Assembly (NCBI GenBank): GCA_030669445.1 | Contig: DAOVDP010000020.1 | Span: 1 to 12,072, forward strand | Length of the DNA: 12,072 nt | From: Candidatus Latescibacterota bacterium | Lineage (GTDB): Bacteria > Latescibacterota > MVCY01 | Direction: 5' to 3' | Shown: positions 5,471 through 12,072 of the stretch, piece by piece | How the letters are laid out: the number at the start of each line of letters is the position of its first letter | Numbering within the stretch: position 1 is the first letter of the stretch | The notes under the pieces: generated by a model | The model's input: the letters and a program-made list of their open reading frames with translations, nothing else | Told to the model about the DNA's origin: nothing | The model's database searches: none | Made by a program: the position numbers and the translations under genes

Positions 5471-7159
5471 GTGATTTTCAAGAAAGCCATATTTCTTTTT
5501 TGCCTTGCTCTTTCTGCCAGCGGCTGTTTCTTCCCTGCTTTGGTGGGGCGTGCTCCCTCTGCAGTCCATCAGCCAGATCCAGAGGCGATGGATCATTTCA
5601 TCTCAGCGAAAATCCTGGAACTGCAGAGAGATTACCAGGGAACAGTGGCTGAGTTGGAGAGAGCATTGGCATACGATCCTCGTTCGGCAACTATCTGCCA
5701 GCAACTGGCCAATGGCTACTTCACTTTGGGTGATAGACAGAAAGCGATACACTTTGCCCAGCGGGCTACCCAGCTTGACCCCGACTGGACAGAGCCCCAC
5801 CGATTACTCTCTCTGCTGTTCCAATTGCAGGAGGAATTGAAAGAAGCGGCTAAAGAACTGGAGGCAGTGGTTAAATTAACCCCTGGTGACCTACAGGCGA
5901 TCTATGGCCTGGCAGATATCTATCTAAAACAGGATAATCCCCGGAAAGCCATAAAGTTACTCAAAAAAGAGATTAGACACAACCGGGGCCTTCCTGAGGT
6001 CCAGTTCAAATTGGCTCAAATCTATGCGGGATTGGGCAAAAGAGAGATAGCCCGGGCTTATTATCGTCAAATCCTGGCAAAAATCCCCAATTCTGAAAAT
6101 GCTTGGTTGGGATTGGGGATGTCCTTTGAGAAAGAAGGTAAAAACAAACAGGCGATCCAAGCTTACCAAAATGGACTCAAACTGGTTCCCCGCAGTAAGT
6201 CACTGAAGCGAAGGTTAGGACAGATGTATCTATCGGTTGGCAGATACCAGGAAGCTGTCTCTCAATTTGAAGGGATTCGCAGACTTTTTCCAAACGAGAG
6301 AGGAATATTACGGGATCTGCTGTTAAGCTACAACCAGATGAGAGATCAACAAAAATTTGACGAATTGGTCAAAGAAATTCGCCACAGTCGGGTCAATAAT
6401 CCAGATTTCTACTACTATGTGGGTAGGGCCTTTGTAGAGATGGAGGAATTTGCCCTTGCCGGGGAGATGTTCCAGAAAGCAGCCACTTTGGGCAATTATG
6501 GTTGGATAGGTGCAGGTTACGCCTTCATCCAGGCACAAAACTTCCCCAAAGCCAGTGAGGTGTTACTGAAGGCGGCGACAGATATGCCTGAGAATGCTCA
6601 GATATTTTACCTGATGGGGATATCCTTGGAGAAGATAGGAATCTGGACTGAAGCCATTACAGCTTTCCGCCAGGCAATCGAGCTTGATCCTCAGAATACT
6701 GATTTCCTGTTTAGATTAGCCAGTTGTTTGGAACAGGCCGGCCTATTCCAGGAAGCCGTGAAGGAATTTGAAACGCTTTTGGCAATTGACCCGGACCATT
6801 CCTTAGCCCTTAACTACCTGGGCTACATCTTTGCTGATAAGGGGATTAACCTGGAGAAATCCCTGCGATTGCTTAAAAAGGCAGTGGCTCAACAGCCGGA
6901 TAATGGTAATTTCCTTGACAGCTTAGGATGGGTTTATTATCGCTTAGGAAAACTGCAGCAAGCCAGAGAGCTTCTGAACAAGGCCGCTAAGCTTGAGAAA
7001 AATAGCGCCATCATTCTCGATCACCTGGGAGAAGTATGTTTTGGGCTCGGTAAAGATCAAGAAGCTAAACTCTATTGGGAAAGATCTCTCCAGCTTGATC
7101 AGGAGAACCTGGAGATCAAAAAGAAGCTGGAGAAGATAGAGACAGAGGTAAAGCCCTAA
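5471..7159 (+). CDS. TPR-repeat lipoprotein (about 15 tetratricopeptide units)
   Basis: The frame is open from inside purF (ATG at 5336). The GTG at 5471 is preferred because of the AGGAGG before it and because translation then starts MIFKKAIFLFCLALSASGC, a lipoprotein signal peptide with a probable lipidated Cys19 (Ala rather than Leu at -3, so a slightly weak lipobox). The product is 562 aa. After the leader and a short linker, 34-residue helical repeats run to the C-terminus; I count about 15. Clear ones are SATICQQLANGYFTLGDRQK and IFYLMGISLEKIGIWTEAIT, and the last two begin LDSLGWVYYRLGK and LDHLGEVCFGLGK. TPR solenoids are protein-binding scaffolds and no catalytic domain is seen. The downstream lipoprotein gene is only 17 nt away, so the two are probably co-transcribed and both sit in the envelope. 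The partner and exact role are unknown; a part in outer-membrane or polysaccharide assembly is only a guess. Confidence 0.9.
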   Translation: MIFKKAIFLFCLALSASGCFFPALVGRAPSAVHQPDPEAMDHFISAKILELQRDYQGTVAELERALAYDPRSATICQQLANGYFTLGDRQKAIHFAQRATQLDPDWTEPHRLLSLLFQLQEELKEAAKELEAVVKLTPGDLQAIYGLADIYLKQDNPRKAIKLLKKEIRHNRGLPEVQFKLAQIYAGLGKREIARAYYRQILAKIPNSENAWLGLGMSFEKEGKNKQAIQAYQNGLKLVPRSKSLKRRLGQMYLSVGRYQEAVSQFEGIRRLFPNERGILRDLLLSYNQMRDQQKFDELVKEIRHSRVNNPDFYYYVGRAFVEMEEFALAGEMFQKAATLGNYGWIGAGYAFIQAQNFPKASEVLLKAATDMPENAQIFYLMGISLEKIGIWTEAITAFRQAIELDPQNTDFLFRLASCLEQAGLFQEAVKEFETLLAIDPDHSLALNYLGYIFADKGINLEKSLRLLKKAVAQQPDNGNFLDSLGWVYYRLGKLQQARELLNKAAKLEKNSAIILDHLGEVCFGLGKDQEAKLYWERSLQLDQENLEIKKKLEKIETEVKP

Positions 7160-7176
7160 AGGATATGTGGACAACG

Positions 7177-7971
7177 ATGAAACAGAAGGCAATTATAGTA
7201 TTTTTTCTACCTTTCTGTGTTCTTCTGAGCTCCAGTGGATGCAGCCACTGGGCAGAGTTGATGAGAGTTCCAGTGAGGGAGGTCTCCGCCTCTCAGGTAA
7301 TCATTGTCTTAGAAAAGAACCGCTCTGGCCTTAAGTCTTTTTGGGGGGAAGCAAAGATCAAACTGCGGAGTTCTCGGTCAGCAACAGCCGAGCCGATTAA
7401 CCAGAGACTCTTAGCCGGTATTTTATTTAAGTCCCCAGCCCAGATGAGGGTGGAGGTATATGCAGGCTTGGGGACGAATATACTTGCCTTCGTTCAGAAA
7501 GGCAGTCAGTTAGATGTCTTTTTGCCTAAGAGCAAACTACTGCTCAGCGGGGATATTAGGACAGATCCCTTAGCACAGGCCATTGGAATCGAGGGTCTCC
7601 TTGATATAGTACTTGAGACATTTGGATCTCACCAACTGAATCCCCAGGATTTGCTGAGTTTTCAGAGAAAAGATGATGAATATGTACTTTGTTTTCAGAA
7701 GAACGACTGTAGGGAAAGATATTGCGTGGATGGAAGAACCCTTCGAATAGTGCAAAAGGAAGTATTCGACACAGGGGGCAAACTACGGAGAAGGGCGATA
7801 TTCAAAAACTATGTGAAGATAAGCGGAATCAGTTTGCCCCGGCAGGTAGAATTTTTTTTCGATGGACACCAGATAAGGGTGAAGTTTATCCGTCAGAAAA
7901 TCAATTTGAAAATAGGAGAGGAGAAGTTTGAACTCAAGGTGCCGGCAGGCACCCAGCGGGTGTCGATATAA
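7177..7971 (+). CDS. LolB/DUF4292-like outer-membrane lipoprotein
   Basis: This encodes 264 aa with signal MKQKAIIVFFLPFCVLLSSSGC, lipidation expected at Cys22. An in-frame ATG at 7165 would add MWTT, but the purine-rich AAAGGA would then be only 1 nt from it; 7177 gives a cleaner lysine n-region. The mature part is beta-rich. SFWGEAKIKLRSSRS is followed by RLLAGILFKSPAQMRVEVYAGLGTNILAF and a DVFLPKSKLLLSG strand, then a second half that returns as YCVDGRTLRIVQKE and GISLPRQVEFFFDG. This pattern fits the LolA/LolB/DUF4292 half-barrel fold that binds lipid acyl chains. LolB inserts lipoproteins into the outer membrane, but sequence alone does not show that this protein is a true LolB; a generic DUF4292 lipoprotein is equally possible. 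It follows the TPR lipoprotein gene by 17 nt and looks like the end of that transcript. Confidence 0.72.
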   Translation: MKQKAIIVFFLPFCVLLSSSGCSHWAELMRVPVREVSASQVIIVLEKNRSGLKSFWGEAKIKLRSSRSATAEPINQRLLAGILFKSPAQMRVEVYAGLGTNILAFVQKGSQLDVFLPKSKLLLSGDIRTDPLAQAIGIEGLLDIVLETFGSHQLNPQDLLSFQRKDDEYVLCFQKNDCRERYCVDGRTLRIVQKEVFDTGGKLRRRAIFKNYVKISGISLPRQVEFFFDGHQIRVKFIRQKINLKIGEEKFELKVPAGTQRVSI

Positions 7972-8250: not shown

Positions 8251-11031
8251 ATGGTGAATCGAAAGACAGCTATAGTTGTCGCTGTGTGCTTGTGGTTTCT
8301 TAGGGTATCTTCTGGGCTTGCACTCCCTAATCAGGTAGACTACCGGATAGAGATAGCCCTGGACACCGAAGAACATCTGTTGAGGGGAAAGCAGGTAATC
8401 GATTTTGTAAATCGCACCGGGATTGCCTTGGAGGAGTTTTATCTGCACCTTTATCCCAATGCCTACCGGGAAGGGAGCCTCTTTTTTCAGGAGCTCCAGC
8501 AGGGCGGTAATGATCTGGATATACTCTATCCAGCAAGAAGAGACGAGGGCTACATTCACATTCATTCCTTAGTGATTAGAGGAAAGGTTGTAACCGACTA
8601 CTACATTGATGACACTATTATGCGCATTGAACTGAAACCGCCTTTGAAAACTAATAAAGGGATGCAACTGGAGCTCGCATTCACGGAGAAAGTGCCGGAG
8701 ATATTCTGGCGACTTGGCCACCACCGAGGGAATTATCACATTGCCCAATGGTATCCTAAGGTGGTTGTTTACGACAAGGCTGGCTGGCATCCCGACAAGT
8801 ATCATTTTCTGGGGGAGTTCTATGGCGATTTTAGTACCTACACTGTGAGCATCAGCCTGCCGGGGAATATGGTAATGGGCGCCACTGGTCGATTGGTGGA
8901 TGAAATAAGCCACCCCAAAGGGAGCAAAACCTGGGTGTGGCAGGCGGAGAATGTCCATGATTTTGCCTGGGTAGCGGATGAGAGTTATCAGGAGGCACTA
9001 GTCCAGTGGGAAGATATTGCTATCCGGTCTCTTTATTTCAAAGGGCATAGAAAGGGAGGTGAGCGAGCAGCCAGACATGCCCGGGAGGCACTTGCATATT
9101 TCAGCCAGAAATACGGCAGATACCCTTACTCTACCTTAACTGTTTGCGAGAGCTATGTCGGGGGGATAGCGATGGGATATCCCACCCTGATTATGTTACC
9201 CCCGGTTTTGTCCTATCAACTGCCCTCCTTTCTCACCATAGTGGAGGCGGTAACTGCCCACGAGATTGCCCACCAGTGGTGGTACGCAGCAGTGGGAAAC
9301 AACGAGCTGGAAGAAGCCTGGTTAGATGAAGGATTTGCTACCTATTCGGAAATCTGCTACATAGAAGATAAACATGGAAAAGACAATAGCTTTATTGATC
9401 TGCCCCCGAGTCTCAGTTTTCTCAAAATATTCCACCTCGACGACTGGCGTAGCAGCTTTTACAAAAGCTGGATTACCCTCTCACTGGAGGGACGAGAACA
9501 GGAGCTGCTTAGCCCCGTCTATGAATTTGAATATCCAGATGTCTACAGCCGAACCGTCTACCATAAAGGGGCGGTGGTGCTTGCTGTGCTGGAGAACCTG
9601 GTGGGGGAAGAGGTATTCAGTGAGATTATGCGCACCTATTTTGAGAATTACAAGTTCAAAAACGCCACTACCGAGGATTTCCAGGCCGTAGTTGAAGAGG
9701 TTAGCCAAACGGATTTAGATTGGTTCTTCCAGCAGATGCTTCATACCACCCGACGGTGTGATTTTGTGCTGGAAAGGGTAAAAGTCCGCAAGACTTCGGA
9801 AAAAGGGTATTTGACCGAGGCAGTGATAAAGCAGGCAGGAGATACTCAACAGATGCCGGTGGAGGTGATGGTAAAGCTGAAAGACGGAGGAAAACTGGTT
9901 AGAAGATGGGATGGCAAAGGGAAATCGGGAGTTGTCACATTTGAGACCTCGGGTCCCGTCAAAGAGATCCTTATCGATCCCAGTAATTGGAGCCTCGATG
10001 TCAACCGGCTCAATAACCGAGGTTTTCCTAAAGTTGCCTTCCATCCGCTGTTCAGCTTTCCCTACACAGATAGGTACATGGTGACCTACTACCCTAAGAT
10101 CGGCTATACTGACACCGATGGTTGGTTGAGTGGCGTGGGCAGCAGAATAGAGGACCCTTTCGGCCACAGAGTGAGTCTTTCTACTGCTTACATCTTCAAC
10201 AAGAACCGGGTAGTCTACGATGCTGGATTTTTTTCTCCTATCTACAAGTGGGGCAATCGTCTTTCTTATTTTGAGTTCAAAGTGGCCGATGACAGACACG
10301 TTCGCAGCCAGAGGGTCACACTGGCTCCAGTACTGGTGGATTACAACAGTTACCGGCGGCACTTCTTTGCCCTTGAGGCCGAACATGAAGAGAATTACAA
10401 TGTGAATCAGGAAGACTACGATCCGGGAATAATCACTGCCGTAGCTGTTTCGTACCGTTTGACGACTAACAGAAGCGCCCTTCGGCAGAATGGCGGACAA
10501 TACCGGGTGCGCTACGAACACAGTCTACCCGATGGGGACTATATCTACGATAAATATTACCTTGAGGTATGTCGATATTTGAGGCTGGGCTGGATGGCCA
10601 CATTAAGAGGTAGGGTCTTTGCTGGCTGGCAGACGGGACACAGTCCCAGGCAGAGGAAGTTCGCACTTTGGCGAGAAGGCGATATGAGTGGTTTCGATCA
10701 CCGGGTACTGGATATCGGGGACTGTATTGGAGGAACCAACACAATCTTGGAGTTTCCTCTTGGTAAAAGCGTTGAGTTTTTCTCCATACCACTTGTTCCC
10801 ACCGTTAGTCTCTTTCTTAACACCGGCAAGATCTGGCAGTCTTCTGAGATTAGGAGTTGGACCAGGATACGAGAAAGTGGCCTGAAAAACTGGCGGGCAG
10901 AAATGGGGGCCGGATTTTCCCTTGAATGTGTCGCCTTTGCTGGTTTGGCTCTGCGGCTACAACTCCCACTTTTAACCAACACTGAAAGGAAATCCCGAGG
11001 GCTGAGGGTCAGGATTGGCTCGGCCTTCTGA
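8251..11031 (+). CDS. Exported M1-family (gluzincin) metallopeptidase fused to a C-terminal outer-membrane beta-barrel-like domain
   Basis: This encodes 926 aa. AGAAGGG (8233-8239) precedes the ATG by 11 nt. A Sec signal peptide (1-24) has the likely cut GLA|LP. Residues about 28-250 are the beta-rich M1 N-terminal domain. The catalytic domain has HEIAHQWW with zinc ligands His337 and His341, base Glu338, and third ligand Glu360 (the HEXXH-X18-E spacing). The transition-state Tyr is probably Tyr437 in VYHKGAVVL. The helical segment to about 500 (TTEDFQAVVEEVSQTDLDWFFQQML) is standard for the family. The GAMEN region reads GGIAMGYP (304-311), with Gly309 where the N-terminus-binding Glu is expected. 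After LIDPSNWSLDVNRLNN (574-589), about 330 residues show alternating aromatic/polar strands, a GG-x-N-x-x-LEFPL segment, VSLFLNTGKIW, and a final RVRIGSAF ending in Phe. Together these recall the last strands of Omp85/D15-type barrels. A surface- or periplasm-exposed peptidase tethered by its own barrel is inferred. Confidence 0.88.
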   Translation: MVNRKTAIVVAVCLWFLRVSSGLALPNQVDYRIEIALDTEEHLLRGKQVIDFVNRTGIALEEFYLHLYPNAYREGSLFFQELQQGGNDLDILYPARRDEGYIHIHSLVIRGKVVTDYYIDDTIMRIELKPPLKTNKGMQLELAFTEKVPEIFWRLGHHRGNYHIAQWYPKVVVYDKAGWHPDKYHFLGEFYGDFSTYTVSISLPGNMVMGATGRLVDEISHPKGSKTWVWQAENVHDFAWVADESYQEALVQWEDIAIRSLYFKGHRKGGERAARHAREALAYFSQKYGRYPYSTLTVCESYVGGIAMGYPTLIMLPPVLSYQLPSFLTIVEAVTAHEIAHQWWYAAVGNNELEEAWLDEGFATYSEICYIEDKHGKDNSFIDLPPSLSFLKIFHLDDWRSSFYKSWITLSLEGREQELLSPVYEFEYPDVYSRTVYHKGAVVLAVLENLVGEEVFSEIMRTYFENYKFKNATTEDFQAVVEEVSQTDLDWFFQQMLHTTRRCDFVLERVKVRKTSEKGYLTEAVIKQAGDTQQMPVEVMVKLKDGGKLVRRWDGKGKSGVVTFETSGPVKEILIDPSNWSLDVNRLNNRGFPKVAFHPLFSFPYTDRYMVTYYPKIGYTDTDGWLSGVGSRIEDPFGHRVSLSTAYIFNKNRVVYDAGFFSPIYKWGNRLSYFEFKVADDRHVRSQRVTLAPVLVDYNSYRRHFFALEAEHEENYNVNQEDYDPGIITAVAVSYRLTTNRSALRQNGGQYRVRYEHSLPDGDYIYDKYYLEVCRYLRLGWMATLRGRVFAGWQTGHSPRQRKFALWREGDMSGFDHRVLDIGDCIGGTNTILEFPLGKSVEFFSIPLVPTVSLFLNTGKIWQSSEIRSWTRIRESGLKNWRAEMGAGFSLECVAFAGLALRLQLPLLTNTERKSRGLRVRIGSAF

Positions 11032-11121: not shown

Positions 11122-12072
11122 ATGTTGAAGAAGAGGCTGATCTTTATCTTGATTGTAGTGTTTGGGTTTTCAATACTTGCCCCATTTCATTCCTGCCAGG
11201 CATCGCAAGCCAATATTTATCTTCAGCTTCAAACCTTGATTGATGTATTAGGTCGCATCAAGAGTGATTATGTGGAAGATATTGATCAATCCGAACTTAT
11301 TGATGGAGCTATAAATGGGGTTCTGCGCCAGCTCGATCCTCACTGTTACTATTTGAAGGCCAAGGAGCTTTCGGATATGGCGGAGAAGTTACGGGGTGAT
11401 TTCGAGGGGATCGGGATTATGTTCGAGATCAGAGATGGTGTACTCACAGTGATTGCTCCTATTGAAGGGTCGCCTTCCGACAGACTTGGCATAAAGGCAG
11501 GTGACAAGATTGTCAGGATTGATGGAAAATCTGCGCTGGGCATCACCACTCAGGAGGTTTACCAGAAATTACGGGGGGCAAGAGGGACAAAGGTGAATGT
11601 TTCGGTGAGAAGAGAAGGGGAGGAAGAACTGCTTGAATTCACCATTATCAGAGATAAGATCCCTAGATATAGCATTCCGTCATCGTTTATGCTCACCCCT
11701 GAAATCGGCTACATTCGGGTTGCCCAATTTTCTCAGAAGACGAACGAGGAGCTGGAGAAGGCATTGAAGCAGTTAGAAGTCCAGGGGATGAAGAAAGTTA
11801 TCCTTGATTTTCGCTGGAATGGCGGGGGGATGCTTTCACAAGCGGTTAAAGTAGCAGATAAGTTTATTAAAACCGGAAAGATCTGTTATACCCAGGGCAG
11901 AACACCTGGTTCTACCCAGGAGTACTATGCCACCCAACAGGGCAGCCATCGCTATTTTCCGCTGATTGTGCTGATTAACCACGCCAGCGCCAGTGCTTCG
12001 GAGATCGTCGCCGGCGCGATTCAGGACTGCGACCGTGGGTTAGTCGTCGGTCAGACCAGTTTCGGCAAAGGT
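11122..12072 (+). CDS. S41 carboxyl-terminal processing protease (CtpA/Prc-like), 3'-truncated by the window edge
   Basis: This is a serine protease with a Ser-Lys dyad that trims or degrades envelope proteins from their C-termini in the periplasm. 317 codons are visible. They begin MLKKRLIFILIVVFGFSILA, an export signal with a probable cut near residues 25-30. Next comes the helical segment with LIDGAINGVLRQLDPHCYYL, characteristic of S41 proteases. A PDZ domain covers about residues 94-168 (GIGIMFE, SPSDRLGIKAGDKIVRIDG). The protease core has VILDFRWNGGGMLSQAVKVADKF and INHASASASEIVAGAIQD. By spacing to the E. coli Prc Ser430/Lys455 dyad, the nucleophile is Ser291 and the base Lys316 in TSFGKG. 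The window ends one codon after that Lys, so the C-terminal 100-200 residues usual for this family are not seen. The visible part is intact. It follows the M1-barrel gene by 90 bp in the same direction. Confidence 0.96.
   Translation, partial: MLKKRLIFILIVVFGFSILAPFHSCQASQANIYLQLQTLIDVLGRIKSDYVEDIDQSELIDGAINGVLRQLDPHCYYLKAKELSDMAEKLRGDFEGIGIMFEIRDGVLTVIAPIEGSPSDRLGIKAGDKIVRIDGKSALGITTQEVYQKLRGARGTKVNVSVRREGEEELLEFTIIRDKIPRYSIPSSFMLTPEIGYIRVAQFSQKTNEELEKALKQLEVQGMKKVILDFRWNGGGMLSQAVKVADKFIKTGKICYTQGRTPGSTQEYYATQQGSHRYFPLIVLINHASASASEIVAGAIQDCDRGLVVGQTSFGKG

Follow-up and report, generated by a model that had tools for sequence, protein, structure and literature searches.

An M1 family peptidase fused to a predicted Omp85-type barrel in a Candidatus Latescibacterota genus and in several other phyla

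The M1-Omp85 fusion gene

The window analysed here is a stretch of 12,072 nucleotides (contig DAOVDP010000020.1, assembly GCA_030669445.1) from a Candidatus Latescibacterota genome that is 62% complete. It carries a gene encoding an M1 family metallopeptidase joined in one chain to a C-terminal Omp85-type barrel, hereafter M1-Omp85. The features of this fusion are listed below, and row counts refer to an alignment of 64 long family members that includes the window protein.

8251..11031, + strand: M1-Omp85 fusion gene, 926 aa, no internal stop
8251..8325, + strand: signal peptide, residues ~1-25 (from the sequence and a modelled hydrophobic helix 2-18; cleavage after GLA is possible)
8326..9996, + strand: M1 peptidase domains I-III, residues 26-582, without helical domain IV
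9175..9177, + strand: codon 309, GGA (Gly), aligned with GAA (Glu of GxMEN) in three congeners
9259..9273, + strand: HEIAH zinc motif, residues 337-341 (H337, E338 and H341 in 64/64 rows)
9328..9330, + strand: Glu360, third zinc ligand of HExxH-18-E (E in 62/64 rows)
9559..9561, + strand: Tyr437, catalytic tyrosine position (Y in 63/64 rows)
9997..10071, + strand: linker, residues 583-607, containing one short strand (594-599) and no POTRA (model; Pfam)
10072..11028, + strand: Omp85-type barrel, 16 long strands, residues 608-926 (models, PDB matches, profile comparison)
10642..10722, + strand: loop 6, residues 798-824, joining strands 11 and 12; SGF 813-815 lies at 10687-10695
10819..10821, + strand: Asn857 of strand 13, FxDxG column (Asp in 49/56 rows having the loop-6 Arg)

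The N-terminal part was assigned to Peptidase_M1 (PF01433) at residues 329-495 (E 2.8e-26; 92.9 bits versus a cut-off of 27.7), and the protein has both the HExxH-18-E zinc site and the catalytic tyrosine that characterize the M1 family. An NCBIfam scan returned M1 models only, far under their cut-offs, plus one chance-level match. The first-pass annotation, made from the sequence alone, had described a signal peptide followed by HEIAH, Glu360 and Tyr437, which the translation and the predicted helix bear out. It had also spoken of a complete M1-like zinc domain; the zinc site is indeed complete, but the glutamate of GxMEN, the exopeptidase motif of M1 enzymes, is Gly309 in the window copy alone, all 63 remaining rows having Glu. 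The window differs here from three congeners by a single base (GGA versus GAA), possibly a real change or an assembly error. In one congeneric genome (G001), Cys stands at the Tyr437 position; none of the four congeneric proteins has lost a zinc ligand. Across the six pairs formed by four congeneric genomes, dN/dS was 0.09-0.16 for the M1 part and 0.10-0.21 for the barrel part, values that suggest purifying selection on both halves within the window genus.

The C-terminal Omp85-type barrel

According to an excerpt of PMC4104836, a C-terminal membrane barrel defines the Omp85 superfamily, and POTRA domains are usual yet absent in several subfamilies; the barrels are 16-stranded (PMC11116518, in excerpt). 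PDB searches with the model of the whole protein gave match lists filled by M1 enzymes and were uninformative on the barrel, for which reason residues 582-926 were folded alone. The resulting model (mean pLDDT, the predicted local distance difference test, 87.2 for residues 608-926) shows M1 domain III running via a short linker straight into a barrel. As the first-pass annotation had proposed, strands were counted, by hand in the confident models, which gave 16 long strands when the short ones at 594-599 and 841-843 are excluded; the feature that defines the superfamily is thus present in the predicted models. All of the 50 best PDB matches of the barrel model were Omp85 entries, and the fold is shared with BamA, TamA, Sam50, FhaC and CdiB. 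The soluble beta-sandwich or sorting domain that the first-pass annotation had named as the outcome contrary to its barrel proposal did not appear. POTRA-like domains, for which it had suggested a search, gave no family in a Pfam scan of the window protein at E up to 1.

Profile evidence points the same way. In Pfam, Omp85 (PF01103) matched residues 726-926 on profile positions 112-325 of 325 (E 0.002). The barrel profile of the family matched BamA of the same genus at 94.9% (E 4e-8) and the PD40-Omp85 proteins of the same genus at 96.8% (E 2e-10), so that in this comparison of two sets the PD40-Omp85 barrel is the closer one. Negative controls (reversed alignments, column-shuffled alignments and an unidentified open reading frame beside L108) stayed at or below 1.5%. 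LptD (PF04453), sought as a control barrel, was found in none of eight genomes, some of them incomplete (G000-G005, G007, G011). The profile built from the window clade alone reached 81.0% against PD40-Omp85 and 99.5% against the rest of the family. Because both halves are under apparent purifying selection and the profile matches lie far above the controls, the Omp85 match of the tail is more than a chance one, and the fusion of an M1 peptidase to a predicted Omp85-type barrel is confirmed. The protein ends in RVRIGSAF, as noted in the first pass, and 44 of the 64 rows end in F or W.

Loop 6 of the family has the consensus GxGNLRGY. At the columns of the window's SGF, RGY occurs in 40 and RGF in 6 of the 64 rows, and Arg in 56; the earlier suggestion that SGF occupies the loop-6 position with its Arg missing agrees with the model and with these 46 rows. 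In BamA, the Arg of loop 6 has a partner in strand 13, an Asp, and the two residues hold loop 6 within the barrel. This pair is retained together in 49 of 64 rows, and in all eight rows where the Arg is absent the FxDxG Asp is absent as well (one of them a gap); the covariation is significant by Fisher's test (p 1.5e-6), computed on sequences that are related. Both residues are gone from the window protein and from the two family members nearest to it.

Relatives and distribution

A search of 5.8 billion proteins yielded 221 relatives, of which 120 were listed; the 64 aligned sequences form set A1, 50 of them form A2, and A3 comprises 60 relatives and the window fragment, without P0037, P0089 and P0103. 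P0037 was excluded from the barrel profile, as its tail looks out of frame. The tail is conserved across the 64-sequence alignment, and named members include KSB1 and Krumholzibacteriota proteins. Automatic annotation usually overlooks the barrel: PF01103 was matched in 14 of 50 scanned members at E <= 0.01, the window protein included, and among the 120 members shown, 17 carry Omp85 in precomputed Pfam; these 120 come from 3268 proteins at E <= 1e-30, a set that possibly contains M1-only proteins. The fusion is therefore hidden in databases because Pfam usually misses the barrel, much as the first-pass annotation had supposed.

The fusion was found in all five genomes of the window genus (the copy of G004 is cut by a contig end); among the matches listed for the phylum's 59 remaining genomes (64 were searched), none spans both parts, and M1 frames of other genera there (e.g., 1077-1198 aa in G018, G019 and G047) possibly carry other tails. 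Elsewhere, the fusion was counted where a single match ran from before position 50 to position 855 or beyond, of 966. In the Hymenobacter phylum (148 genomes) it occurs in at least 20, and in the phylum to which a Zixibacteria genome belongs (98 genomes) in at least 26; both totals include the centre genome, and one row of the latter phylum has an in-frame stop. Homologues keeping both parts, which the first-pass annotation had proposed to look for, thus occur across several phyla. The fusion is recurrent in Bacteroidota and related phyla, and the finding is more general than the first pass knew. Among 80 named loci, five have a tail of at least 300 aa (two Latescibacterota, one Hymenobacter, two Bipolaricaulota), and hmmsearch with the barrel profile recovered two of these five (L002 and L003, both of the window genus). 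Pfam finds no Omp85 in the tail of the Hymenobacter protein (Hymenobacter sp. CRA2, L008), which reached a weak 58.8% in profile comparison with the barrel. Clostridia relatives stop a few residues past the M1 match. An M1 protein with an unexplained 172-residue tail was also observed in a genome labelled Firmicutes (UBA3567; L013:5179-).

If the tail lies in the outer membrane, it is expected only where Omp85 machinery exists. The Natronincola phylum was represented by 199 genomes; seven of them have an M1 frame of at least 897 aa, and together with two Bipolaricaulota genomes added from a separate locus survey these make up nine long-tailed genomes. A separate Omp85 gene was present in 9/9 of them and in 0/13 of the best-scoring genomes with short M1 frames; these 22 genomes are related and do not represent 22 independent events. 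In G235 the long tail gives an Omp85 match of its own (E 5.7e-4), and the tails of L190/L191 were recognized as barrel at 94.0%. Outside this co-occurrence set, the 856-aa protein of G373 ends in a tail that is rich in helices and resembles PepN, as judged by eye.

Genes adjoining the fusion

Three further genes flank the fusion in the window:

5471..7159, + strand: TPR protein, 562 aa, with a lipoprotein-like start (start placed as in L163 and L164); similar to several TPR proteins, LbcA being one of them
7177..7971, + strand: DUF4292/LolA-like putative lipoprotein (DUF4292 E 3.2e-7)
11122..12072, + strand: S41 C-terminal processing peptidase, continuing past the window end (Pfam; structure match of an ortholog)

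A comparison of neighbours, likewise proposed in the first pass, showed that the order TPR, DUF4292, M1-Omp85, S41 is repeated in L163 and in L164, the latter on the contig of L002. The S41 ortholog (L163:6129-7802) has 7rpq and 8sxe_A as its best PDB matches, with E of about 1e-64 (3.4e-64 for the 8sxe protease chain). The matches of the TPR ortholog (L163:752-2437) include PA4667, which is LbcA, at E of about 1e-23, both as 8sxe_C, the partner chain of 8sxe_A, and as 7rqf (E 1.3e-23), which ranked ninth behind designed TPR proteins and OGT. By analogy with these structures, the gene order suggests that the fusion may share a proteolytic line with its LbcA-like TPR and CtpA-like S41 neighbours. 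The DUF4292/LolA-like putative lipoprotein adjoins the fusion at L163:2457-3248 as it does in the window. Subgroups of the fusion in the Bacteroidota sample share other neighbours.

The CtpA-like protease, TPR protein and LolA-like protein beside the fusion would also suit a role in outer-membrane protein quality control, in which the M1 domain clips stalled or misfolded barrels beside the BAM complex and its own barrel docks to BAM or to substrates. Omp85 barrels are outer-membrane folding machines, and one zinc protease, BepA, degrades outer-membrane proteins that have stalled (PMC13067283, in excerpt). However, M1 enzymes are exopeptidases and poor at internal cuts, no POTRA was found that could take substrates, and neither the window protein nor its nearest relatives keep the Arg/Asp pair of loop 6 and strand 13; we consider this role improbable.

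Predicted topology and working

With 16 strands, both barrel ends lie on one face and loop 6 on the opposite face, and the N-terminus of strand 1 points away from loop 6, as deduced from the models. Because loop 6 is outside in Omp85 proteins and the barrel N-terminus is on the opposite side, the M1 domain is predicted to be periplasmic, with the barrel probably keeping the enzyme at the inner face of the outer membrane. The first-pass annotation had allowed either the cell surface or this inner face; the topology and the finding on PlpD given below favour the latter, and surface display is unlikely. Type Vd-like autotransport, in which the barrel would carry or present the M1 domain at the surface to digest external peptides, was first proposed for PlpD (PMC4104836, in excerpt), and surface peptidases might suit a scavenging life style. 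We regard it as quite improbable here: strand 1 begins on the side opposite loop 6, the linker is only ~25 residues long and the M1 domain, of ~555 residues, is predicted to be folded, and the enzyme domain of PlpD was found to be exclusively periplasmic, contrary to the earlier autotransporter view (PMC11116518, in excerpt).

We regard it as likely that M1-Omp85 is an outer-membrane-anchored periplasmic M1 exopeptidase, perhaps with TPR/S41 partners. The signal peptide would export the protein, and assembly of the C-terminal Omp85-type barrel into the outer membrane would anchor it there. The N-terminus of the barrel would come out on the periplasmic side, placing M1 domains I-III on the inner face, with the barrel in the place taken by helical domain IV in larger M1 enzymes. 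There, we infer, the M1 domain may trim peptides as a zinc exopeptidase. In the window genus it may work together with the LbcA-like TPR lipoprotein and the CtpA-like S41 protease encoded next to it, and might finish peptides released by the S41 enzyme.

Several observations weigh against this reading. All structural evidence is predicted. In place of the RGF/RGY of Omp85 proteins the window copy has SGF, without the Arg; its PF01103 score of 18.1 bits is under the cut-off of 24; and the window-clade barrel profile alone reached only 0.7% against BamA. The Pfam match under its cut-off would suit a tail that is a soluble beta-rich or sorting domain rather than a membrane barrel. This is barely credible in view of the 16 long strands, the exclusively Omp85 entries among the 50 listed PDB matches, the loop-6 motif of the relatives, and the occurrence of long tails in Omp85-bearing genomes in 9/9 cases (with 7/9 tails unrecognized by profile).

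These seven unrecognized tails weaken the co-occurrence test. L189 and L192-L195 from the Bacillota sample and L058 and L197 from Bipolaricaulota, C-terminal stretches of 310-342 aa, scored 0.4-1.7% against the barrel; for them the test is one of co-occurrence only, because profile comparison does not recognize them, and they are possibly other barrels. Lower in the ranking of the Natronincola phylum than the 13 short-framed genomes tested, at least six genomes (G264, G279, G297, G303, G338 and G395) combine a short-framed M1 with a barrel-profile match, and therefore the rule is one-way: a long tail implies Omp85 genes, and an outer membrane does not imply a tail. As for the partners, TPR proteins match one another promiscuously, with designed TPRs and OGT above LbcA, and no TPR-S41 pair was seen around ten members of the Bacteroidota sample, which were inspected by eye, with no family search.

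Finally, peptidase activity may be altered in the window genus, because G309 replaces the GxMEN Glu and G001 has Cys at Tyr437. Judged from these two substitutions, the domain could be inactive in the genus and act as a binding domain on an outer-membrane anchor. We consider this unlikely, as all four congeners keep every zinc ligand, the dN/dS of the M1 part is 0.09-0.16, the other three congeners retain Glu, and the one-base difference may be an assembly error.

Comparison with known Omp85 proteins

The nearest parallel in build to M1-Omp85 is PlpD (patatin-Omp85), which likewise joins an N-terminal enzyme to a C-terminal 16-strand Omp85 barrel in one chain. Its enzyme domain is periplasmic (PMC11116518, in excerpt), the side also predicted for the M1 domain of the window protein. 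PlpD consists of a patatin lipase and a POTRA domain, whereas the window protein has an M1 domain and neither patatin nor POTRA at E up to 1; PlpD is moreover a homodimer.

Ten Omp85 subfamilies have been described, none of which is named with an M1 domain in section 10 of PMC4104836. In that survey (Heinz and Lithgow 2014, in excerpt) the 'Metallo' subfamily has a non-POTRA, enzyme-like domain before the barrel, as in the window protein. The defining domain of this group, PF00149, gave no match in the window protein at E up to 1. PF00149 is a calcineurin-like phosphoesterase and not an M1 peptidase, though the survey writes metalloprotease. No M1-Omp85 fusion was met in the titles or abstract openings of the open literature searched.

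BamA, TamA, Sam50, FhaC and CdiB have the same barrel fold as the window protein but no peptidase; they carry POTRA domains and function in assembly or secretion. Conversely, the two-domain M1 peptidase of Deinococcus radiodurans (6koy, 6a8z) lacks a barrel, unlike the window protein. Closer to hand, the window genus has a WD40-Omp85 protein with an N-terminal Peptidase_MA_2 domain, HExxH present, and hence a second gluzincin-type peptidase on an Omp85 barrel. Such Peptidase_MA-PD40-Omp85 proteins differ from the fusion in their peptidase family and in a PD40 propeller between peptidase and barrel. One chain holding Peptidase_MA_2 with HExxH, PD40 propeller and Omp85 lies at L116:2415-5372 (-). 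The peptidase and propeller part of such a protein was seen at L115:1-1908 (-), and the propeller and barrel part, in the genome of the window itself, at L102:634-2727 (-), both limited by the contig or the stretch.

M1-Omp85 would be a second enzyme type, after PlpD, for which an Omp85 barrel apparently acts as an anchor instead of folding or exporting proteins, and recognition of the barrel shifts the likely cell location of many entries named 'M1 family peptidase' or 'hypothetical protein'. A wider proposal, toward which we remain somewhat doubtful, is that M1-Omp85 forms an unnamed Omp85 subfamily spread over several phyla, in which a POTRA-less barrel purely anchors a periplasmic exopeptidase; that together with Peptidase_MA-PD40-Omp85 and DUF4097-Omp85 it would show the barrel to be a general mount for periplasmic domains; and that in the window genus it would be coupled to an LbcA-CtpA-type protease as an outer-membrane-tethered peptide-processing line. 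Whether an Omp85 barrel can serve as a mere anchor is a question testable in cultured Bacteroidota. The DUF4097-Omp85 fusions, a combination outside the subfamilies named in section 10 of PMC4104836, were observed in congeners at L111:151-2166 (+) and L117:932-2968 (+), and carry a clear TLRGY loop-6 motif.
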